Assembly: GCF_022259695.1 (NCBI RefSeq)
Contig: NZ_CP092099.1
Location: forward strand, 2,650,471-2,714,470
Length of the DNA stretch: 64,000 nucleotides
Direction: 5' to 3'
Origin: Flaviramulus sp. BrNp1-15
GTDB taxonomy: Bacteria > Bacteroidota > Bacteroidia > Flavobacteriales > Flavobacteriaceae
Shown: piece by piece, positions 13,068-63,594 of the stretch
Layout: each line of letters opens with the position of its first letter
Numbering within the stretch: position 1 is the stretch's first letter
Notes under the pieces: generated by a model
The model's database searches: none
The model's input: only the letters and a program-made list of their open reading frames with translations
Told to the model about the DNA's origin: nothing
Position numbers and translations under genes: made by a program

Positions 13068-13207
13068 AATGACCACTGACGTGTTTATGTATGGTAGTTG
13101 CGAGTCTTTCATTAAAATAGCCAAAGGAAATGAATCTATTGAAAATACGTAGGATTTTCCAAATAAACATTTGCCAAAGCAATTAATTACACACGTTGTT
13201 GTATGCA
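13068..13207 (-). repeat. attC-like repeat R1
   Basis: Downstream of the protease gene, 123 bases from its AAC core to its GTC (normally GTT) core. On the minus strand it begins TGCATACAACAACGTG, continues with a GTAATTAATTGC arm, has a central hairpin with arms GAAAAT and ATTTTC, and ends GCAACTACCATACATAAACACGTC. Its outer bases are complementary to the start of the same cassette at 14034-14043. Confidence 0.8.
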
Positions 13208-13211
13208 GTTT

Positions 13212-14009
13212 TTAAGGTAAACTATCAAATATTTTTTCCAAATATGATGCTTTCCATAATGCACCATAGATGTAAAGTTTATGTGAATGTGAAAAGACTC
13301 CCATAAATTTTGATTGACCAGTTACAAATGCATTTTTGCCATTTTTAAGTTTTACCATTTGATTACTTTTAAAATAAACTGGGGAACCAGACATTCCTGG
13401 GAAAGTTATAGCGTCAACCCACATTATTGGCTTTCCTTCTTGATCAAAATCTGGTTCAGATGCAATTAGTCCAGATTTCCATACAGGAAATGCAGGAAAA
13501 CTTCTCACACCTCTGGGAAATCCTAAAATGAATACTCTATCAGTAGTTGTTATTTGGACTTCGTCATACGCTGATTTTTTATAATTAACTGGATAAGTTT
13601 TTACTCCAAGAGTATCTTTTAAAGGTAATTCAATTACGTCAACATATTCATTCTTTATTTTATTTTCATGCCATAATTTATTGCCTAATTTATCAAATAA
13701 ATGTTCAGTTTTCAAAATATAAGTTCCCAAACTATCTGCATTGTGAAGTATTACAATTTTATTAGGTGCTACAGGTTTTTTTGGGTCAAGCCATTTATTG
13801 TTGAAAGGATTTTTATTAGTTATAACATGATAATTTGTAACTAAATAATTTTGAGTTTTTGATTTGATAATAAAACCTGTTGCGCTACTTAATTTAGTTG
13901 TGCCATTGTAAGTTTCTATATACAAACTTTGTAAAGACTCAATCTGCGTAATGGTTTGACTTATTGCAGATATAGGTAAAAAAAATAAAAATAGTATAAG
14001 GTTTCTCAT
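13212..14009 (-). CDS. Secreted trypsin-like serine protease (cassette gene)
   Basis: A signal peptide of about 17 residues precedes a chymotrypsin-fold domain. The His site is YLVTNYHVIT (around residue 58), a plausible Asp lies in VDVIELPL (about 126), and the catalytic Ser is in TFPGMSGSPVYF (about 215). The strand LVTNYHV and loop GMSGSPV are typical of stress-type trypsin-like peptidases without a PDZ domain. Substrate is unknown. Its cassette has 10-bp complementary ends (GTTGTATGCA at 13198 and TGCATACAAC at 14034). The stop lies five bases from the repeat edge and the leader is about 24 bases. Confidence 0.82.
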   Translation of the reverse strand: MRNLILFLFFLPISAISQTITQIESLQSLYIETYNGTTKLSSATGFIIKSKTQNYLVTNYHVITNKNPFNNKWLDPKKPVAPNKIVILHNADSLGTYILKTEHLFDKLGNKLWHENKIKNEYVDVIELPLKDTLGVKTYPVNYKKSAYDEVQITTTDRVFILGFPRGVRSFPAFPVWKSGLIASEPDFDQEGKPIMWVDAITFPGMSGSPVYFKSNQMVKLKNGKNAFVTGQSKFMGVFSHSHKLYIYGALWKASYLEKIFDSLP

Positions 14010-14033: not shown

Positions 14034-14173
14034 TGCATACAACGGTTTTATCTATGGTTAGTTGCGTGTTTCAGCAACTAATTTAGCAAACAAATCACAG
14101 ATAGAAAATTCCAGCGGAATTTTCGTAAGTCGGCAGTGAACCAAACAATTAATTATACACGTTGTTGTAACTT
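14034..14173 (-). repeat. attC-like repeat R2
   Basis: Lies between the winged-helix and protease cassettes; 126 bases from AAC core to GTT core. The minus strand reads AAGTTACAACAAC, arm GTGTATAATTAATTG, central hairpin with arms GAAAATTCC and GGAATTTTC around GCT, then arm CAACTAACCATA and core ACCGTTGTATGCA. It contains the segment CTAAATTAGTTGCTGAAACACGCAA, shared in large part with R5 and R7. Confidence 0.85.
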
Positions 14174-15053: not shown

Positions 15054-15191
15054 AAGTTACAACGGTCTAGTGTATGATTTCGTTGCCTGTTTAAGCATTA
15101 AAGTTAGCGAATAAATCACAGATAGAAAGTCCGCGAGGACTTTCGTAAGTAAGCTATAACTAGCAATGAATTATACACATTGTTGTGCTTA
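15054..15191 (-). repeat. attC-like repeat R3
   Basis: Lies between the HEPN/nuclease and winged-helix cassettes; 124 bases between cores. The minus strand reads TAAGCACAACAAT, arm GTGTATAATTCATTGC, hairpin arms GAAAGTCC and GGACTTTC around TCGC, then GCAACGAAATCATACAC and core ACCGTTGTAACTT. Both the hairpin (AT pair to GC) and the arm (TTA/TAA to TTC/GAA) differ from other copies in a compensatory way. Confidence 0.85.
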
Positions 15192-15192
15192 G

Positions 15193-16140
15193 TTATTTTA
15201 TCGTTGTCGTATAATAAATTTCTTTTCCGAAATGTGCCATAGTATCAATTTCTAAAAAATTTGAGCTCGGAACATTTTTTGGATACCATAAAATACCTTG
15301 TTCAATTTTGGTTGCAGTTAGATAATCCAATAGTTGGTCTTCGTGAGAATGAGTTTGTCTAATTGAAGGTCGTTTGAATTCAATTATTAGTTTTTCTTTC
15401 CCTAATTCGACCAACATATCCAATCTGTAACTTCTGTTTTTGTCAGAATGTTTAACGTCAGTTTTTACTTCAATTTCTTTCGATGCAGTTTTGATAAAAG
15501 CACTAAACATTCCAATCAATTCAAGTTCTTTAGTGTTAGAATTTAAAAGTTTATTTTCTGTAGAAAACTCTTTTATTAATTCAACTATTTTTTCGTGTAA
15601 ATCTAAATCAGGTTTTTTAATAATTGCTTGAATTAACTTCTGCTTTTCCTTTTCATTTTTAAGTCTTTCTTTCTCGTTATCAAAAGCAAGTTTTTCAATG
15701 ATTTGATTTAATAAAACATATATGTAAGCCGAAACGTTTACAATAGCTAAAAATGCCTCACTTTGGTCAAAGAATAGTTTAAAATCGTGAGTTGACTTAT
15801 TCCTCCATTCTTGTCTGTAATTTTTAAAAAAGTGAAGAACACGTTCATTAAATATTGAATTTGTCTCAAAGAAATCCTCAATATCAACAGTTCGCTTATT
15901 GTTAGCTTGACTTTCAGATTTTTCAGCTAAAATCATATATGATTGCCTTAAACTTCCCTCAAAAGCTTGATTAGTTCTGTAGATTACATCTGTAAAATAG
16001 TTTTCATCTCCATTTAATCTTCCCTCTTTGTAGAAAAATTCAGCACGTTCAATATGAATTAGAACTTTATCTAAAGTCACAGCAGAAGATAATTCTCTTA
16101 TCTCTGTTATTTGCTCTCTGATTGCATTTAAAGTGTCCAA
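15193..16140 (-). CDS. Probable HEPN + PD-(D/E)XK nuclease-like fusion (cassette gene)
   Basis: Residues about 22-155 are all-helical and resemble a HEPN domain: IHIERAEFFYKEGRL, YRTNQAFEGSLRQSYMIL, then the RNase-type motif RNKSTH (Arg113, His118, Rx4H with Asn after Arg). A charged coiled region (155-175) follows. Residues 225-290 carry a restriction-type core: RLDMLVELG (Asp241), LIIEFKRP (Glu254, Lys256), and a helix with EDQLLDYL (Gln269). HEPN RNases and PD-(D/E)XK nucleases are both common in defence and toxin systems, so a defence role is plausible but inferred. Cassette ends are GTTGTGCTTA (15182) and TAAGCACAAC (16161). No partner antitoxin gene is visible. Confidence 0.6.
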   Translation of the reverse strand: MDTLNAIREQITEIRELSSAVTLDKVLIHIERAEFFYKEGRLNGDENYFTDVIYRTNQAFEGSLRQSYMILAEKSESQANNKRTVDIEDFFETNSIFNERVLHFFKNYRQEWRNKSTHDFKLFFDQSEAFLAIVNVSAYIYVLLNQIIEKLAFDNEKERLKNEKEKQKLIQAIIKKPDLDLHEKIVELIKEFSTENKLLNSNTKELELIGMFSAFIKTASKEIEVKTDVKHSDKNRSYRLDMLVELGKEKLIIEFKRPSIRQTHSHEDQLLDYLTATKIEQGILWYPKNVPSSNFLEIDTMAHFGKEIYYTTTIK

Positions 16141-16160
16141 TTTCGGTAGTTTTTTCTAAT

Positions 16161-16292
16161 TAAGCACAACTAAGGGATATGAATCATTTCACACTTCTAC
16201 TTCACTCATTAAAAACCAATTACACCCACTAACAAGCTAAATTAATAGAAATGCCACACTATTGAAAGCGAAGTTATTAAGAGTTGTAAACA
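16161..16292 (-). repeat. attC-like repeat R4 or array boundary site (divergent)
   Basis: The upstream edge TAAGCACAAC complements the far end of the HEPN cassette. A GTTGTAAACA box at 16283-16292, seven bases before the end of the pyruvate-kinase-like gene, gives a 118-base AAC-to-GTT interval, close to the other copies. The interior shows little of the family arms or hairpin (only a GTTAGTGGGTGTAATTGG segment on minus). It may be a decayed repeat or a primary attachment site; no partner for GTTGTAAACA was found upstream of the kinase-like gene. Confidence 0.45.
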
Positions 16293-26130: not shown

Positions 26131-26165
26131 ATAAAAGCCAGTAATTATTTACTGGCTTTTATTTT
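26131..26165 (+). terminator. Rho-independent terminator after the TonB receptor gene
   Basis: Perfect 11-bp stem (AAAAGCCAGTA / TACTGGCTTTT, six-base loop) ending in a short T run. Confidence 0.85.
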
Positions 26166-26277
26166 AGCACGCTAACTCATTTTTGTAGAATTTTTAGTTA
26201 TTTTAGAGGTGGTATATAATGTGGATAAACGTATTATCTTTATCCATATGTTGTACACAATTTAACCAAACATTTGT

Positions 26278-26898
26278 ATGAAAGAAAATAAACATTATTT
26301 AATATTACCTTTTTTCTTGTTAGTAATATCTTGTTTAAATAATAAATCTTCAGATGAAACTATTGAGGTTAATTTTAGTCAAAAGACCATAAAAAATCAG
26401 ATATTTAAAAATCCCGAAGCAAACAAAACGAATAGTATTGCTGTAGAATTCGCGAAAAAAGGAGAAAACATAAAAGCGGAAAATATTTTCCATGAAGCTT
26501 TAGAAATCGAGCCTGATAACTACACGATAATGAGCAACATTGGATTGAATTCATTAGCTCTTAAAAAATATGACAAATCAATTGAATTTTTAAAAAAATC
26601 AATTACTGCTTCTGATTCAACTTATTTTATTGCAAGTTCCAATTTAGGACTTGTCTATTACAAAACTTCTGAATATGAAAAATCTATAAAAATTTTAGAC
26701 TTTGTCATTAAAAATTGTGATGATAAAGAAATTATTTTAGCTTCTTATATAAACCAAGCTTTTAGTTACTTATCAATCGGAAATTGTACTGAAGCTAAAA
26801 ACAACTTAATTCTTATTAAGAAAATAGAATTTGAATACAATGCTGACGTTGAATATGTTGAAGAAAAATTAAAAAAATGTGTACAACAACGTGTATAA
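26278..26898 (+). CDS. TPR-repeat lipoprotein (cassette gene)
   Basis: A lipoprotein signal ends LVISC (Cys19). Residues about 55-200 form four tetratricopeptide-type helix pairs (AVEFAKKGENIKAENIFHEAL, NIGLNSLALKKYDKSIEFLKK, NLGLVYYKTSEYEKSIKIL, NQAFSYLSIGNCTEAKNNL), a protein-binding scaffold. No partner is known. The last six codons, including the stop, lie inside repeat R5, so the C-terminal VQQRV is encoded by the repeat. Leader of 18 bases after the cassette edge. Confidence 0.85.
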   Translation: MKENKHYLILPFFLLVISCLNNKSSDETIEVNFSQKTIKNQIFKNPEANKTNSIAVEFAKKGENIKAENIFHEALEIEPDNYTIMSNIGLNSLALKKYDKSIEFLKKSITASDSTYFIASSNLGLVYYKTSEYEKSIKILDFVIKNCDDKEIILASYINQAFSYLSIGNCTEAKNNLILIKKIEFEYNADVEYVEEKLKKCVQQRV

Positions 26899-27020
26899 TT
26901 AATTGCTTTGGCAAGTGCTTATTTGGAAAATTCCTTCGGAATTTTCTCGCGTTCGTTTTTGTTTACTAAATTAGTTGCTGAAACACGCAACTAACCATAC
27001 ACAACAACGTTAGGAGTAAT
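26878..27020 (+). repeat. attC-like repeat R5
   Basis: 127 bases from AAC to GTT core. The order is TGTGTACAAC, AAC, arm GTGTATAATTAATTGC, central hairpin with arms GAAAATTCC and GGAATTTTC around TTC (26926-26946), arm GCAACTAACCATACAC, AACAAC, GTTAGGAG. The two arms pair over 16 bases with three A-C mismatches that are G-T wobbles on the other strand. It is about 91 percent identical by eye to R7, 35 kb away. Confidence 0.9.
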
Positions 27021-27071
27021 AATGACCAAACAAAGTTAACTTCAATCAGTTATTAATCAGATTAAAATACA

Positions 27072-27770
27072 ATGACTCACACCAAGACTTTTAAATTAGT
27101 ATTTCTTCAAATACTAATTATAATTTCAACAAAATCCTTTTCTCAAATTGTTGACAAACACTACAATCATAAAACAGCAGCACTTGAATTAGAAAACGTA
27201 GCCAAAAAAATAAGCTCTGGATTACCATATAATATCAGTCCAAAATTAGTGCAGTATATGTATGAAAATCATGAGGATTTTCCGAAAATACCAGAAAACT
27301 CTAGTTCTAAAAATAAAATGGAAACCCTAGCCCCTACTTATACCTACATTAATTTAATCCTTAAATCACAATTGATTGCACCTCAGGATTCAATTTCTAA
27401 AAAACAGGCTATGTTAGCGGCTACTCTCGGATATCAATCTATTAAAATTATTTCTCTATCCAATGAATTCATAAATTCTCTGGATAAGGATGCTTATAAT
27501 TACAAAACACGGGTTAGAGGATTTAATCAAGGAATAAAAGGCTTAAAGCAGTATCTTTTAGGCTATACTACAATGACATTTTTAGAAAATCAAAACCAAA
27601 ATGTTGATGACATACTAATTTCAAATTTAAAAAATTTTGCTCCAAAAATCTTAAATGAATTTCCTAGAGATGAAAAAGAACTAACCATTCAATTACTAAA
27701 GTCATCAATAGAAGGGAAAAATGATATTCGATTAATAAATGAATTCAATAGTTTTATTGAATCACTATAA
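27072..27770 (+). CDS. Exported protein of unknown function (cassette gene)
   Basis: A signal peptide (cleavage near KSFS-Q, residue 24) precedes a 208-residue mostly helical domain: NHKTAALELENVAKKI, a segment with KKQAMLAATLGYQSIKIISL, and NQGIKGLKQYLLGYTTMTFLENQN. No family is recognised. The conserved Lys/Gln face and absence of Cys give no enzymatic clue. Its cassette ends (GTTAGGAGTAATA and TACTATTGCTAAC) match at 10 of 13, older than the neighbours. The leader of about 50 bases is the longest of the plus-strand units. Confidence 0.65.
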   Translation: MTHTKTFKLVFLQILIIISTKSFSQIVDKHYNHKTAALELENVAKKISSGLPYNISPKLVQYMYENHEDFPKIPENSSSKNKMETLAPTYTYINLILKSQLIAPQDSISKKQAMLAATLGYQSIKIISLSNEFINSLDKDAYNYKTRVRGFNQGIKGLKQYLLGYTTMTFLENQNQNVDDILISNLKNFAPKILNEFPRDEKELTIQLLKSSIEGKNDIRLINEFNSFIESL

Positions 27771-27778
27771 AGCAAATG

Positions 27779-27920
27779 TACTATTGCTAACATAGTCTAT
27801 AATTTATTGCTAAGACTCTACTGCTTTCGAAAATCCTACGGATTTTATATTCGGTTTGTATTTGCTAAATTAGTTACTTAACAACACAATAAAAACGATG
27901 TTTAAAACCGTTGCAATCAA
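27779..27920 (+). repeat. attC-like repeat R6 (degenerate)
   Basis: 124 bases between AAC and GTT cores. The left arm TCTATAATTTATTGC and the central hairpin (arms AAAATCC and GGATTTT around TAC) are clear, and CTAAATTAGTTACT is shared with R5 and R7. The right arm is disrupted by an A-rich segment, and the edge is ACCGTTGCAATC. Confidence 0.65.
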
Positions 27921-27948: not shown

Positions 27949-28173
27949 ATGGGAAAAGCTTCAATAATATTAATAGCAATAGTGCTTTTTGTAATAATCA
28001 CTTTTCTTTATTGGAAAATAACTAGAGGTTTTGGTGAAAAAGAATATGGTAAAAAGATGTGGGAAAATTGGGGAACTAGAACTTTTTATTGGACAGGTGC
28101 ATTATTCATTAGTGGCGGTATTACAGTGTTGTTAATTTATCTTTTAAAATGGGGAAATGTTTTGGCTTTTTAG
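27949..28173 (+). CDS. Small two-helix membrane protein (cassette gene, open unit)
   Basis: 74 residues with two transmembrane helices (IILIAIVLFVIITFLYW and WTGALFISGGITVLLIYLL) joined by a charged, Gly/Lys-rich loop (KITRGFGEKEYGKKMWENWG). No family is recognised. It follows repeat R6 by 28 bases, but no repeat or complementary edge was found after its stop, so this is either the array end or a unit that lost its site. Confidence 0.6.
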   Translation: MGKASIILIAIVLFVIITFLYWKITRGFGEKEYGKKMWENWGTRTFYWTGALFISGGITVLLIYLLKWGNVLAF

Positions 28174-46283: not shown

Positions 46284-46508
46284 ATGGATTTAATAGACAG
46301 AGCATTAGAGTTTGAACAAAGAAAAATGAGATCATTATCAACAAGTGATCGTGTTAAACTATCTAGAGAAGCAAAAGCATTAATCCTAGATTTAAATCAG
46401 ATTTATAAAGTAAAAAAAGACGAGAAAATAATGGATATCATGAAGCGTTTAACAGCAATTAAAAGAAAGGTTGAAAAACGACTTAAAGGAGCGCCGTTAA
46501 CTGCTTAA
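46284..46508 (+). CDS. Small charged helical protein, paralogue A
   Basis: 74 residues: LIDRALEFEQRKMRSLSTSD, then REAKALILDLNQIYKVKKDE, then MKRLTAIKRKVEKRLKGAP. All helical, Lys/Arg-rich, no family recognised. A close relative is encoded at 46677. Four bases follow folE, so it is in the same transcript. Confidence 0.72.
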   Translation: MDLIDRALEFEQRKMRSLSTSDRVKLSREAKALILDLNQIYKVKKDEKIMDIMKRLTAIKRKVEKRLKGAPLTA

Positions 46509-46676
46509 TTTTTTGAAAAAAGATTAAAAATAGCATCAAATAAAATAAATTATTAAATTTTTTATAAAATATCACCATAAAAATAGTAAATCTCATAGAT
46601 TTTATTATATTGTCAAATTGTGGGAAAACCTATAGTTTTCTCAGACTAATAAAATTAGATTAAAGATTAAAAAGTT

Positions 46677-46892
46677 ATGGAGATTATTGATAAAGCTCTA
46701 GAATTCGAGCAACGCAAACACACTTTTAAAACAACAAGTGAGCGTATTGAATCGTCTAGAGAAGTTAAAAATTTAATATTAAGTTTAAATTCTATTTATA
46801 AAGAAAAAAAGGATCCAGAGTTAATGGATCTTATGAAACGATTAACAGTAATTAAACAAAAAATTGAAAAAAGGCTAAAGGGCAGGCCATAA
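46677..46892 (+). CDS. Small charged helical protein, paralogue B
   Basis: 71 residues aligned end to end with the protein encoded at 46284 (LEFEQRK, LNSIYK, MDLMKRLTVIKQKIEKRLKG), clearly a tandem duplicate. The 168 bases between the two copies hold no gene. No function recognised; the conserved EFEQRK and MKRLT segments are good search seeds. Confidence 0.72.
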   Translation: MEIIDKALEFEQRKHTFKTTSERIESSREVKNLILSLNSIYKEKKDPELMDLMKRLTVIKQKIEKRLKGRP

Positions 46893-61118: not shown

Positions 61119-61192
61119 GGCGAGGTAGCTCAGTTGGTTAGAGCGTCGGATTCATAACCCGGAGGTCGGGGGATCGTGCCCCCCTCTCGCTA
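61119..61192 (+). tRNA. tRNA-Met (anticodon CAT)
   Basis: A 74-base cloverleaf: acceptor GGCGAGG / TCTCGCT with G-T ends, D-stem GCTC/GAGC, anticodon loop TTCATAA with CAT, T-stem GGGGG/CCCCC, and discriminator A. Because there is no C1-A72 initiator mismatch and the three GC anticodon pairs are imperfect, an elongator Met tRNA is more likely than initiator. The T-loop is ATCGTGC rather than TTCRANY, and the anticodon stem closes with an A-C pair. No CCA is encoded, as is usual here. An integrase fragment follows 55 bases downstream. Confidence 0.88.
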
Positions 61193-61247
61193 CAAATGTA
61201 AAATCACACAAAACTAGCGGTTTAGGTTTTCTCTAAACCGTTTTTTT

Positions 61248-62081
61248 ATGTCTACATTTAAACAAATTCTTACTTTTGCATACGAAAGTGAATACGAAAG
61301 TGCATACGATTTGTCAAAAAAGAAACTTTTTTCCAGTCCAAAAATCTATACAGCCAACGGAAATTTATCCAAGCGATGGTATGTGTATTTTTCCTTTCGA
61401 GACCCCAATACAGGTAAACTAAAGCGTCTCACCCCGTTTTATGGAACAGCAAACACTTATAAAACCAAGGAAGAGCGCATGGAAGTACTTACAGTATATC
61501 GTAAAGTATTACTCAAGCTCTTAAAACAAGGTTATAATCCTTTTAAAGATAACACTGCGTTATATCAAAAATTACATGGAAAAACTATAACCACACCTTC
61601 AATAACTGAAGAAAGCACCCAACAAAAAGAAGCGAAACAGAGCTTAAATCAACCCCGAGAAATGCCCAATCTATCATTGAGGGCTGCGTTTGATTATGGT
61701 TTAAAACTCAAAGAAAAATTAGTAGGTGTACGTACTTTAAAAGATTATAGAAATAAAATAGATCTGTTGTTAAAATGGTTGGATAAAAACCATCCAAATA
61801 TTAAAACAATTGACACTTTAGATAAACAGTTGGTTCTTCAGTTTTTAAACCATGTTTTAGATAAAACCTCTCCACGTAATAGAAATAATTATCGAGCCGA
61901 TTTAGGTAGCATTATTCAAGTGTTGGAAGATAATGATGTTATTGGACAGAACTTTGTAAAAAACATACCCATATTAAAATCAAAACCAGAACGCAATAAA
62001 ACCTATACGTTAGAAACTCAAGAAGCAATAGATAAGAACATAGAACTTTCTATAAAGGAACAAGAGAACAAAAAGAATTAA
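61248..62081 (+). pseudogene. Tyrosine integrase fragment lacking the catalytic domain
   Basis: 277 residues: an N-terminal arm-type region (SKRWYVYFSFRDPNTGKLKRL) and a SAM-like core-binding domain (about 150-245, LKDYRNKIDLLLKWLDKNHP, SPRNRNNYRADLGSIIQVLED). It then reads ETQEAIDKNIELSIKEQEN and stops where the Flavobacteriaceae integrase family continues into the catalytic domain. The Arg, His-x-x-Arg and Tyr of the recombinase site are therefore absent. The break coincides with repeat R7 of cassette array 3, ten bases from the stop. It sits 55 bases from tRNA-Met, a typical island site. Confidence 0.8.
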
Positions 62082-62083
62082 AC

Positions 62084-62224
62084 TATGCACAACACCGTGT
62101 ATAATTAATTGCTTTGGTCGTTGCTTATATGGAAAATTCCTTCGGAATTTTCTCGCGCTCGTTTTTGTTTACTAAATTAGTTGCTCAAACACGCAACTAA
62201 CCATACACAAGACCGTTGTACACC
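62084..62224 (+). repeat. attC-like repeat R7
   Basis: 127 bases between cores. The layout equals R5: TATGCACAAC, arm GTGTATAATTAATTGC, hairpin arms GAAAATTCC and GGAATTTTC around TTC, arm GCAACTAACCATACAC, ACCGTTGTACACC. It differs from R5 at about 12 of 130 bases by eye. Its left-edge bases (TATGC) have no complementary partner nearby. Confidence 0.9.
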
Positions 62225-62735: not shown

Positions 62736-62879
62736 GGTGTACAACAATGCATAAAAATAATGCTTAGTTTTATACTTAATCAAAGTTTAGTGCTTTTTTG
62801 TTAGCTTCTGATTTTCCTTCGGAAAATCCTCGCATACAAACACGTAACTTTTCTTACACATAAACATTTTGCACAATAT
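62736..62879 (+). repeat. attC-like repeat R8
   Basis: 126 bases from the AAC core to ATT in place of GTT. The central hairpin has arms GATTTTCC and GGAAAATC around TTC (62810-62828), unlike R5 in sequence but equally paired. The arms are more diverged (ATGCATAAAAATAATGC with a CTTACACAT side). Edge bases continue into the next gene's start. Confidence 0.75.
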
Positions 62880-63452: not shown

Positions 63453-63594
63453 ATACTGTACACAACAACGTATATAAAAAATTGCTGGTGTTGTGCTAAA
63501 ACAAAGGTCGTTGCACGTTTGCTACGTCTGATTTTCCTTCGGAAAATCCTCGCACGCAAACCCGCAACTTTCCATATACAAACACGTTACAGGT
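63453..63594 (+). repeat. attC-like repeat R9
   Basis: 125 bases between cores. The hairpin has arms GATTTTCC and GGAAAATC around TTC (63530-63548). The left arm GTATATAAAAAATTGC and right arm GCAACTTTCCATATAC pair over 16 bases with the same three A-C positions as R5, although the intervening bases (TTA/TAA in R5) have changed to AAA/TTT. Confidence 0.85.

Follow-up and report, generated by a model that had tools for sequence, protein, structure and literature searches.

The short array at 26215-27915 of the window (the whole 64,000-nt stretch of DNA that was analysed, C1:2650471-2714470 of a 3.58-Mb genome on one contig), here called array B, is most probably one small part of a system that captures genes in the manner of an integron, when its cassettes, its insertion site and the rest of the genome are read jointly. 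This system very likely works like an integron, to judge from its sequences; in the strict sense it is not one, since its recombinase lacks the I2 helix of integron integrases and its cores mostly depart from the GTTRRRY consensus. It is widespread in marine Bacteroidota, where standard integron surveys report nearly none; for Bacteroidetes proper, IntegronFinder 2.0 listed only one complete integron, that of Salinibacter (PMC9024848). No published description of the system was found in the open-access literature, though one may exist elsewhere. Some genomes hold at least 50 cassettes, and the recombinase is present at hundreds of loci; if the reading is right, a large stock of mobile genes has gone unnoticed.

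Array B and its locus

Array B consists of an attI-like site and two cassettes, after which comes a third gene without a repeat:

26215 to 26252, + strand: attI-like site, TGGATAAA-N9-TTTATCCA, then 3 nt and GTT
26250 to 27008, + strand: cassette 1, from GTT to the base preceding the next GTT; complementary ends 12/13
26278 to 26898, + strand: TPR lipoprotein gene, stop within unit b1
26883 to 27014, + strand: attC-like unit b1 (R1 model, 123 bits)
27009 to 27908, + strand: cassette 2; ends agree 10/13
27072 to 27770, + strand: gene of cassette 2, 232 aa, without Pfam match
27787 to 27915, + strand: attC-like unit b2, right half degenerate (R1 model, 50.8 bits)
27949 to 28173, + strand: third gene, a 74-aa membrane protein, after unit b2 and without a unit of its own

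An earlier note on this DNA had described the TPR lipoprotein unit as having perfect 10-bp complementary ends and as containing the last codons of the gene (VQQRV and stop), and had called the next unit older, with 10 of 13 matches. These descriptions are borne out: the 5' end at 26250 (GTTGTACACAATT) and the 3' end, once reverse-complemented (GTTGTACACATTT), agree at 12 of 13 positions, the first 10 perfectly, the reading frame stops 16 nt into unit b1, and cassette 2 gives the stated 10 of 13. The same note had remarked that no left repeat precedes the first gene and had supposed an attachment site within 26165-26259. An attI-like site does stand there in place of a repeat. At recombinase loci, an inverted repeat (arms 7-14), 2-7 nt and GTT follow the stop codon of the recombinase gene in 63 of 78 cases, an attI beside the recombinase gene as in integrons, whereas a palindrome with GTT occurs in 3 of 240 control stretches. 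Against 73 such recombinase-linked attI sites, 26215-26252 is the top match on both strands of the window (31/38; runner-up, 27/38), the 31/38 being reached with the attI of Hanstruepera marina and that of a Polaribacter MAG. The genome's own attI, beside its recombinase gene, is of a different type. Four contigs (L272, L328, L326 and L292) stop 3-6 nt from the start of the attI GTT, which hints at live cassette exchange within the sequenced population, since assemblies break where differing sequences join one point.

Because of the match at 26215-26252, array B is best read as an attI with cassettes and without a recombinase gene. No such gene adjoins it, and that of the linked recombinase (C1:2886557-2887684) lies about 210 kb off. 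This distance, and the fact that targets other than attI hold most of the scattered cassettes in the genome, would also suit an off-target insertion at an ordinary GTT, attG-like, in which array B does not derive from an integron platform and the palindrome on its left is coincidental. Such an origin is unlikely, however, as the site is the best match in the window with its GTT in register, and its arm, loop and gap (8, 9 and 3) equal those of the attI at L283 and L292. Under the preferred reading, array B probably either brought along an attI of its own (Hanstruepera/Polaribacter type) or is what is left of an older platform after loss of the recombinase gene; its right end has decayed. Array B itself may be inactive, because it has no adjoining recombinase gene, unit b2 is degenerate and the third gene is unit-less. 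PADLOC gave no defence match in array B.

Comparison with relatives behind the TonB receptor gene had been proposed as a check, with the expectation that the cassettes would be absent and the flanks rejoined. The first part held, in that none of 29 relatives has cassettes 3' of this gene; the second did not, in that the next gene differs. The genes on the right of array B (lipoprotein, PIG-L deacetylase) stand after a CorA-like gene in relatives, similarity to which starts again at about 28226, and in none of the relatives examined do the TonB and PIG-L genes adjoin each other. On this arrangement, array B lies at a break in gene order, and an empty form of the exact site could not be demonstrated: neither the TonB-flank nor the PIG-L-flank comparison gave a clean one.

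Cassette ends and strand asymmetry of the units

The first 13 nt of a cassette pair with the last 13 nt of the same cassette. Among cassettes in relatives, 146 of 195 match their own other end at 8-9 of 9 matchable positions, against a chance level, from ends of other cassettes, of 1.7%. Position 11 never matches; of 176 well-matched pairs, 158 set a 5' A against a 3' C, equivalent to T.G on the bottom strand, and array B has A against A. Searched without a model, the two strands of the window yielded only four perfect end pairs, all at cassette ends of the two other arrays, A and C. This pairing is the logic of integron cassettes, the two ends of which meet in the circle.

The genome holds 56 attC-like units of about 130 nt in many places. 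When 32 of them are aligned, the layout is an AAC core, a 3-nt spacer, the left arm GTGTATAATTAATTGC, a variable middle with a small hairpin, the right arm GCAACTAACCATACAC, a spacer and a GTT core; the spacer that separates the AAC/GTT cores from the L arms is unpaired. Stem pairs covary, T-A, A-T, G-C and C-G being found at single positions, and at two to three stem positions the coding strand nearly always has A against C, that is, T against G on the other strand. Read on the top strand, A.C and G.T number 86 and 8 in the own genome, 183 and 3 in 20 loci of relatives, and 382 and 8 in 80 named loci (94 and 8 minus two fixed columns). With wobbles included, pairing on the bottom strand extends to 94% of cells in the own genome, the units of which were aligned by sequence, and to 98-99% in both relative sets, which were aligned to the model and are biased to its structure, a bias that does not produce the direction of the asymmetry. 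Near-full stem pairing is thus a property of the bottom strand only and fits the expectation for recombination of a folded bottom strand. As in integrons, the unit is a hairpin (R''-L''-L'-R') with an asymmetry favouring the bottom strand, here by way of A.C/G.T pairs.

The cores depart from those of integrons: GTT and AAC are kept, while only 12 of 146 have the full GTTRRRY and 9 of 149 the full RYYYAAC, and a pattern search for GTTRRRY gave no excess over the reversed control. Rfam has no match at the units. Single-sequence folding of integrated units gave z of -1.5 to -2.7 only, without strand preference; it is weak because the outer arms of an integrated unit stem from different cassettes, and covariation is the better test.

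The recombinase and its linkage to the units

Five tyrosine recombinases are encoded in the genome, two of them XerC- and XerD-like. Another (C1:2886557-2887684) has 376 aa; on the 3' side of its gene come TATATAGTTACTAGTAACTATATA-CATAC-GTT and a same-strand array of 17 units that extends to 2903112. The enzyme passes the NCBIfam model of XerA type, NF040815 (238.6 bits; cut-off, 220), and fails that of integron integrases, TIGR02249 (203 bits in two stretches; cut-off, 265), as does the first orthologue scanned (209.5 bits). The catalytic motifs R, K, HxxR, H and Y are retained. The I2 α-helix insertion of integron integrases is absent, 24 aa lying between the aligned blocks versus 66 in VchIntIA (2a3v). 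The nearest fold to an AlphaFold model built with 44 orthologues (pLDDT 81; the single-sequence version was unusable) is this same integron integrase, 2a3v (E 1e-16). The recombinase has an added N-terminal α-β domain, about 75 residues long in the model and about 100 aa in the comparison with Vibrio-type integrases, with no consistent Pfam family match, which, as a guess, stands in for I2. Known integron integrases act on folded attC via the I2 helix, and its absence here counts against the integron-like reading. In PMC7790495, I2 is regarded as the innovation that enabled integrases to use single strands. If the present reading is true, a second type of protein is able to recombine cassettes as single strands, and the part played by I2 can be tested directly in this system.

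A scan of GTDB genomes found at least 492 relatives of the recombinase, the closest of which, among named genomes, are held by Flavobacteriaceae, and 80 named loci of this family were retained. All 241 units at these loci share the strand of the recombinase gene, and 235 are downstream of it, so that cassettes with an attC-like palindrome stand in tandem and in one orientation, as in integrons. Of the 58 loci in which 1.5 kb or more follows the gene, 55 have units. The recombinase gene is instead divergent from the array in two branches farther away (L161 and L172). Among 60 relatives, in which presence of the recombinase was called at about E 1e-45 or better, units occur in 36 of the 37 genomes that have the recombinase and in 5 of the other 23 (P = 6e-10). 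One relative (G019) counts against the linkage, having 36 units and no detected recombinase orthologue. Elsewhere in the phylum, units were found in 36 of 148 sampled genomes. On three plasmids, of Chryseobacterium, Persicobacter and Rufibacter (L359, L360 and L362), same-strand units come after the gene of a related recombinase, and same-strand small genes also lie behind the recombinase in annotated plasmid records of Chryseobacterium and Rufibacter; the plasmid copies in these two genera suggest that the system can travel. The R1 model detects few units on plasmids from distant hosts, and more distant attC types are therefore under-counted.

These findings can be joined in the following scheme. 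A cassette is one gene with one attC-like unit, the bottom strand of which would fold to a hairpin whose outer arm is formed by both ends of the same cassette. The recombinase, encoded elsewhere than array B, would act at the GTT core of the circular cassette and link it to one of three partners: the GTT adjoining an attI palindrome, a further unit or a scattered palindromic docking site. The sequences themselves show the anatomy, the paired ends, the strand asymmetry, the linkage to the recombinase, the attI and the targets both empty and filled; the circular intermediate, the single-stranded mode and the recombinase as the agent are inferred. It is quite improbable that the units are mobilised by another enzyme, such as XerC/XerD (pdif), an IS200/IS605 or REP HUH transposase or an IS91-type element. 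XerC and XerD are indeed present in the genome, and TnpF-like plasmid recombinases are related to the recombinase described here, but the units track this one gene by position, strand and presence. A XerCD pdif module needs 28-bp XerC/XerD flanking sites (dif), whereas the units are hairpins of about 130 nt with cassette-specific arms; for IS200/IS605 or REP elements (HUH Y1), the genome gave one match below threshold (21.7 vs 23 bits) and no Y1 transposase above it.

Scattered docking sites and comparison with known systems

Ten single cassettes outside the main array each lie, in constant orientation, between the halves of a palindrome, CTAACTTCGTTTAACGATTGATAT...ATATCATCGC on one side and TTAAACGAAC on the other. 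The docking site is a 65-bp palindrome, TTCGTTTAAC...GTTAAACGAA, found at L239:3230-3300 and again at some 16 other positions of the genome. An empty copy (L239) and an occupied one (L258) of the same genome have the left half in common, and likewise an empty (L242) and an occupied copy (L243) in a relative (G006); further empty copies are L248 and L249. The insertion point is the GTT (or ATT) core. In the window, array A lies on the minus strand at about 16170-12610 and array C near the right end:

16110 to 16170, - strand: left border of array A, a TCATATC-N5-GTT target half, a half-site related to the docking palindrome
15058 to 15186, - strand: unit u1 of array A
14038 to 14168, - strand: unit u2 of array A
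13075 to 13202, - strand: unit u3 of array A, right end approximate
62089 to 62220, + strand: unit c1 of array C
62741 to 62871, + strand: unit c2 of array C
63462 to 63591, + strand: unit c3 of array C

The 5' end expected for the c1 cassette was not found within 4.5 kb upstream. At 61119-62220, a phage-type integrase gene (61248-62081) comes after a tRNA gene; only its N-terminal part is left, and it abuts unit c1.

The three arrays in 64 kb that the earlier note had counted are thus all present. It had concluded that the cassettes integrate at many sites, unlike one large chromosomal integron. The docking palindromes, empty and occupied, and the many places that hold the 56 units make this right in general; the contrast is only half right, since a large 17-unit array adjoins the recombinase gene and the scattered sites do not replace a chromosomal integron. 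That the units are terminators or RNA elements inherited vertically with their genes is hardly tenable: they hold a hairpin, sit at gene ends and in one case contain the stop of a gene, but their end pairs are cassette-specific, A.C pairs would spoil a coding-strand RNA, their orientation is fixed relative to the recombinase, one target is known both empty and occupied, and 29 relatives have no cassettes behind the TonB gene.

Sedentary chromosomal integrons of the Vibrio type (IntI, attI and attC) resemble this system in a recombinase gene adjoining attI, in arrays of single genes in one orientation, each with an imperfect palindrome and a GTT core, and in complementary cassette ends and a bottom-strand hairpin (PMC2727003). 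They differ in that the recombinase here has an extra N-terminal domain and lacks I2, its gene usually points in the same direction as the cassettes, the cores are GTT without RRRY, and strand polarity is given by G.T wobbles rather than extrahelical bases. Array B and the scattered arrays, without a neighbouring recombinase, are like the CALIN of IntegronFinder (attC clusters lacking an integrase), although the cores here are mostly off the attC consensus, array B has an attI-like site, and a complete platform exists elsewhere in the genome. Insertion at secondary or attG sites likewise puts cassettes beyond the integron, with GTT or GAT as the junction (PMC10127599), whereas the sites here are a repeated palindromic element with empty copies rather than scattered degenerate sites. 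XerA and TnpF-type recombinases (NF040815) share the family of the enzyme, which clears their cut-off; unlike them, it is linked to attI and cassette arrays. On balance, we lean towards a separate class of integron in Bacteroidota, in which folded-strand recombination would have evolved without I2, perhaps via the N-terminal domain, and dispersed palindromic docking sites would account for single cassettes all over the chromosome.

A few further features were observed. Two direct repeats of 151 nt, 74% alike and spaced by 393 nt, lie at 46339-46882 of the window. In array A, 13212-14009 encodes a trypsin-like protease similar to the candidate defence family PDC-S45. According to PADLOC, a main-array cassette at L044:18079-19682 encodes an AbiEi/AbiEii toxin-antitoxin pair.
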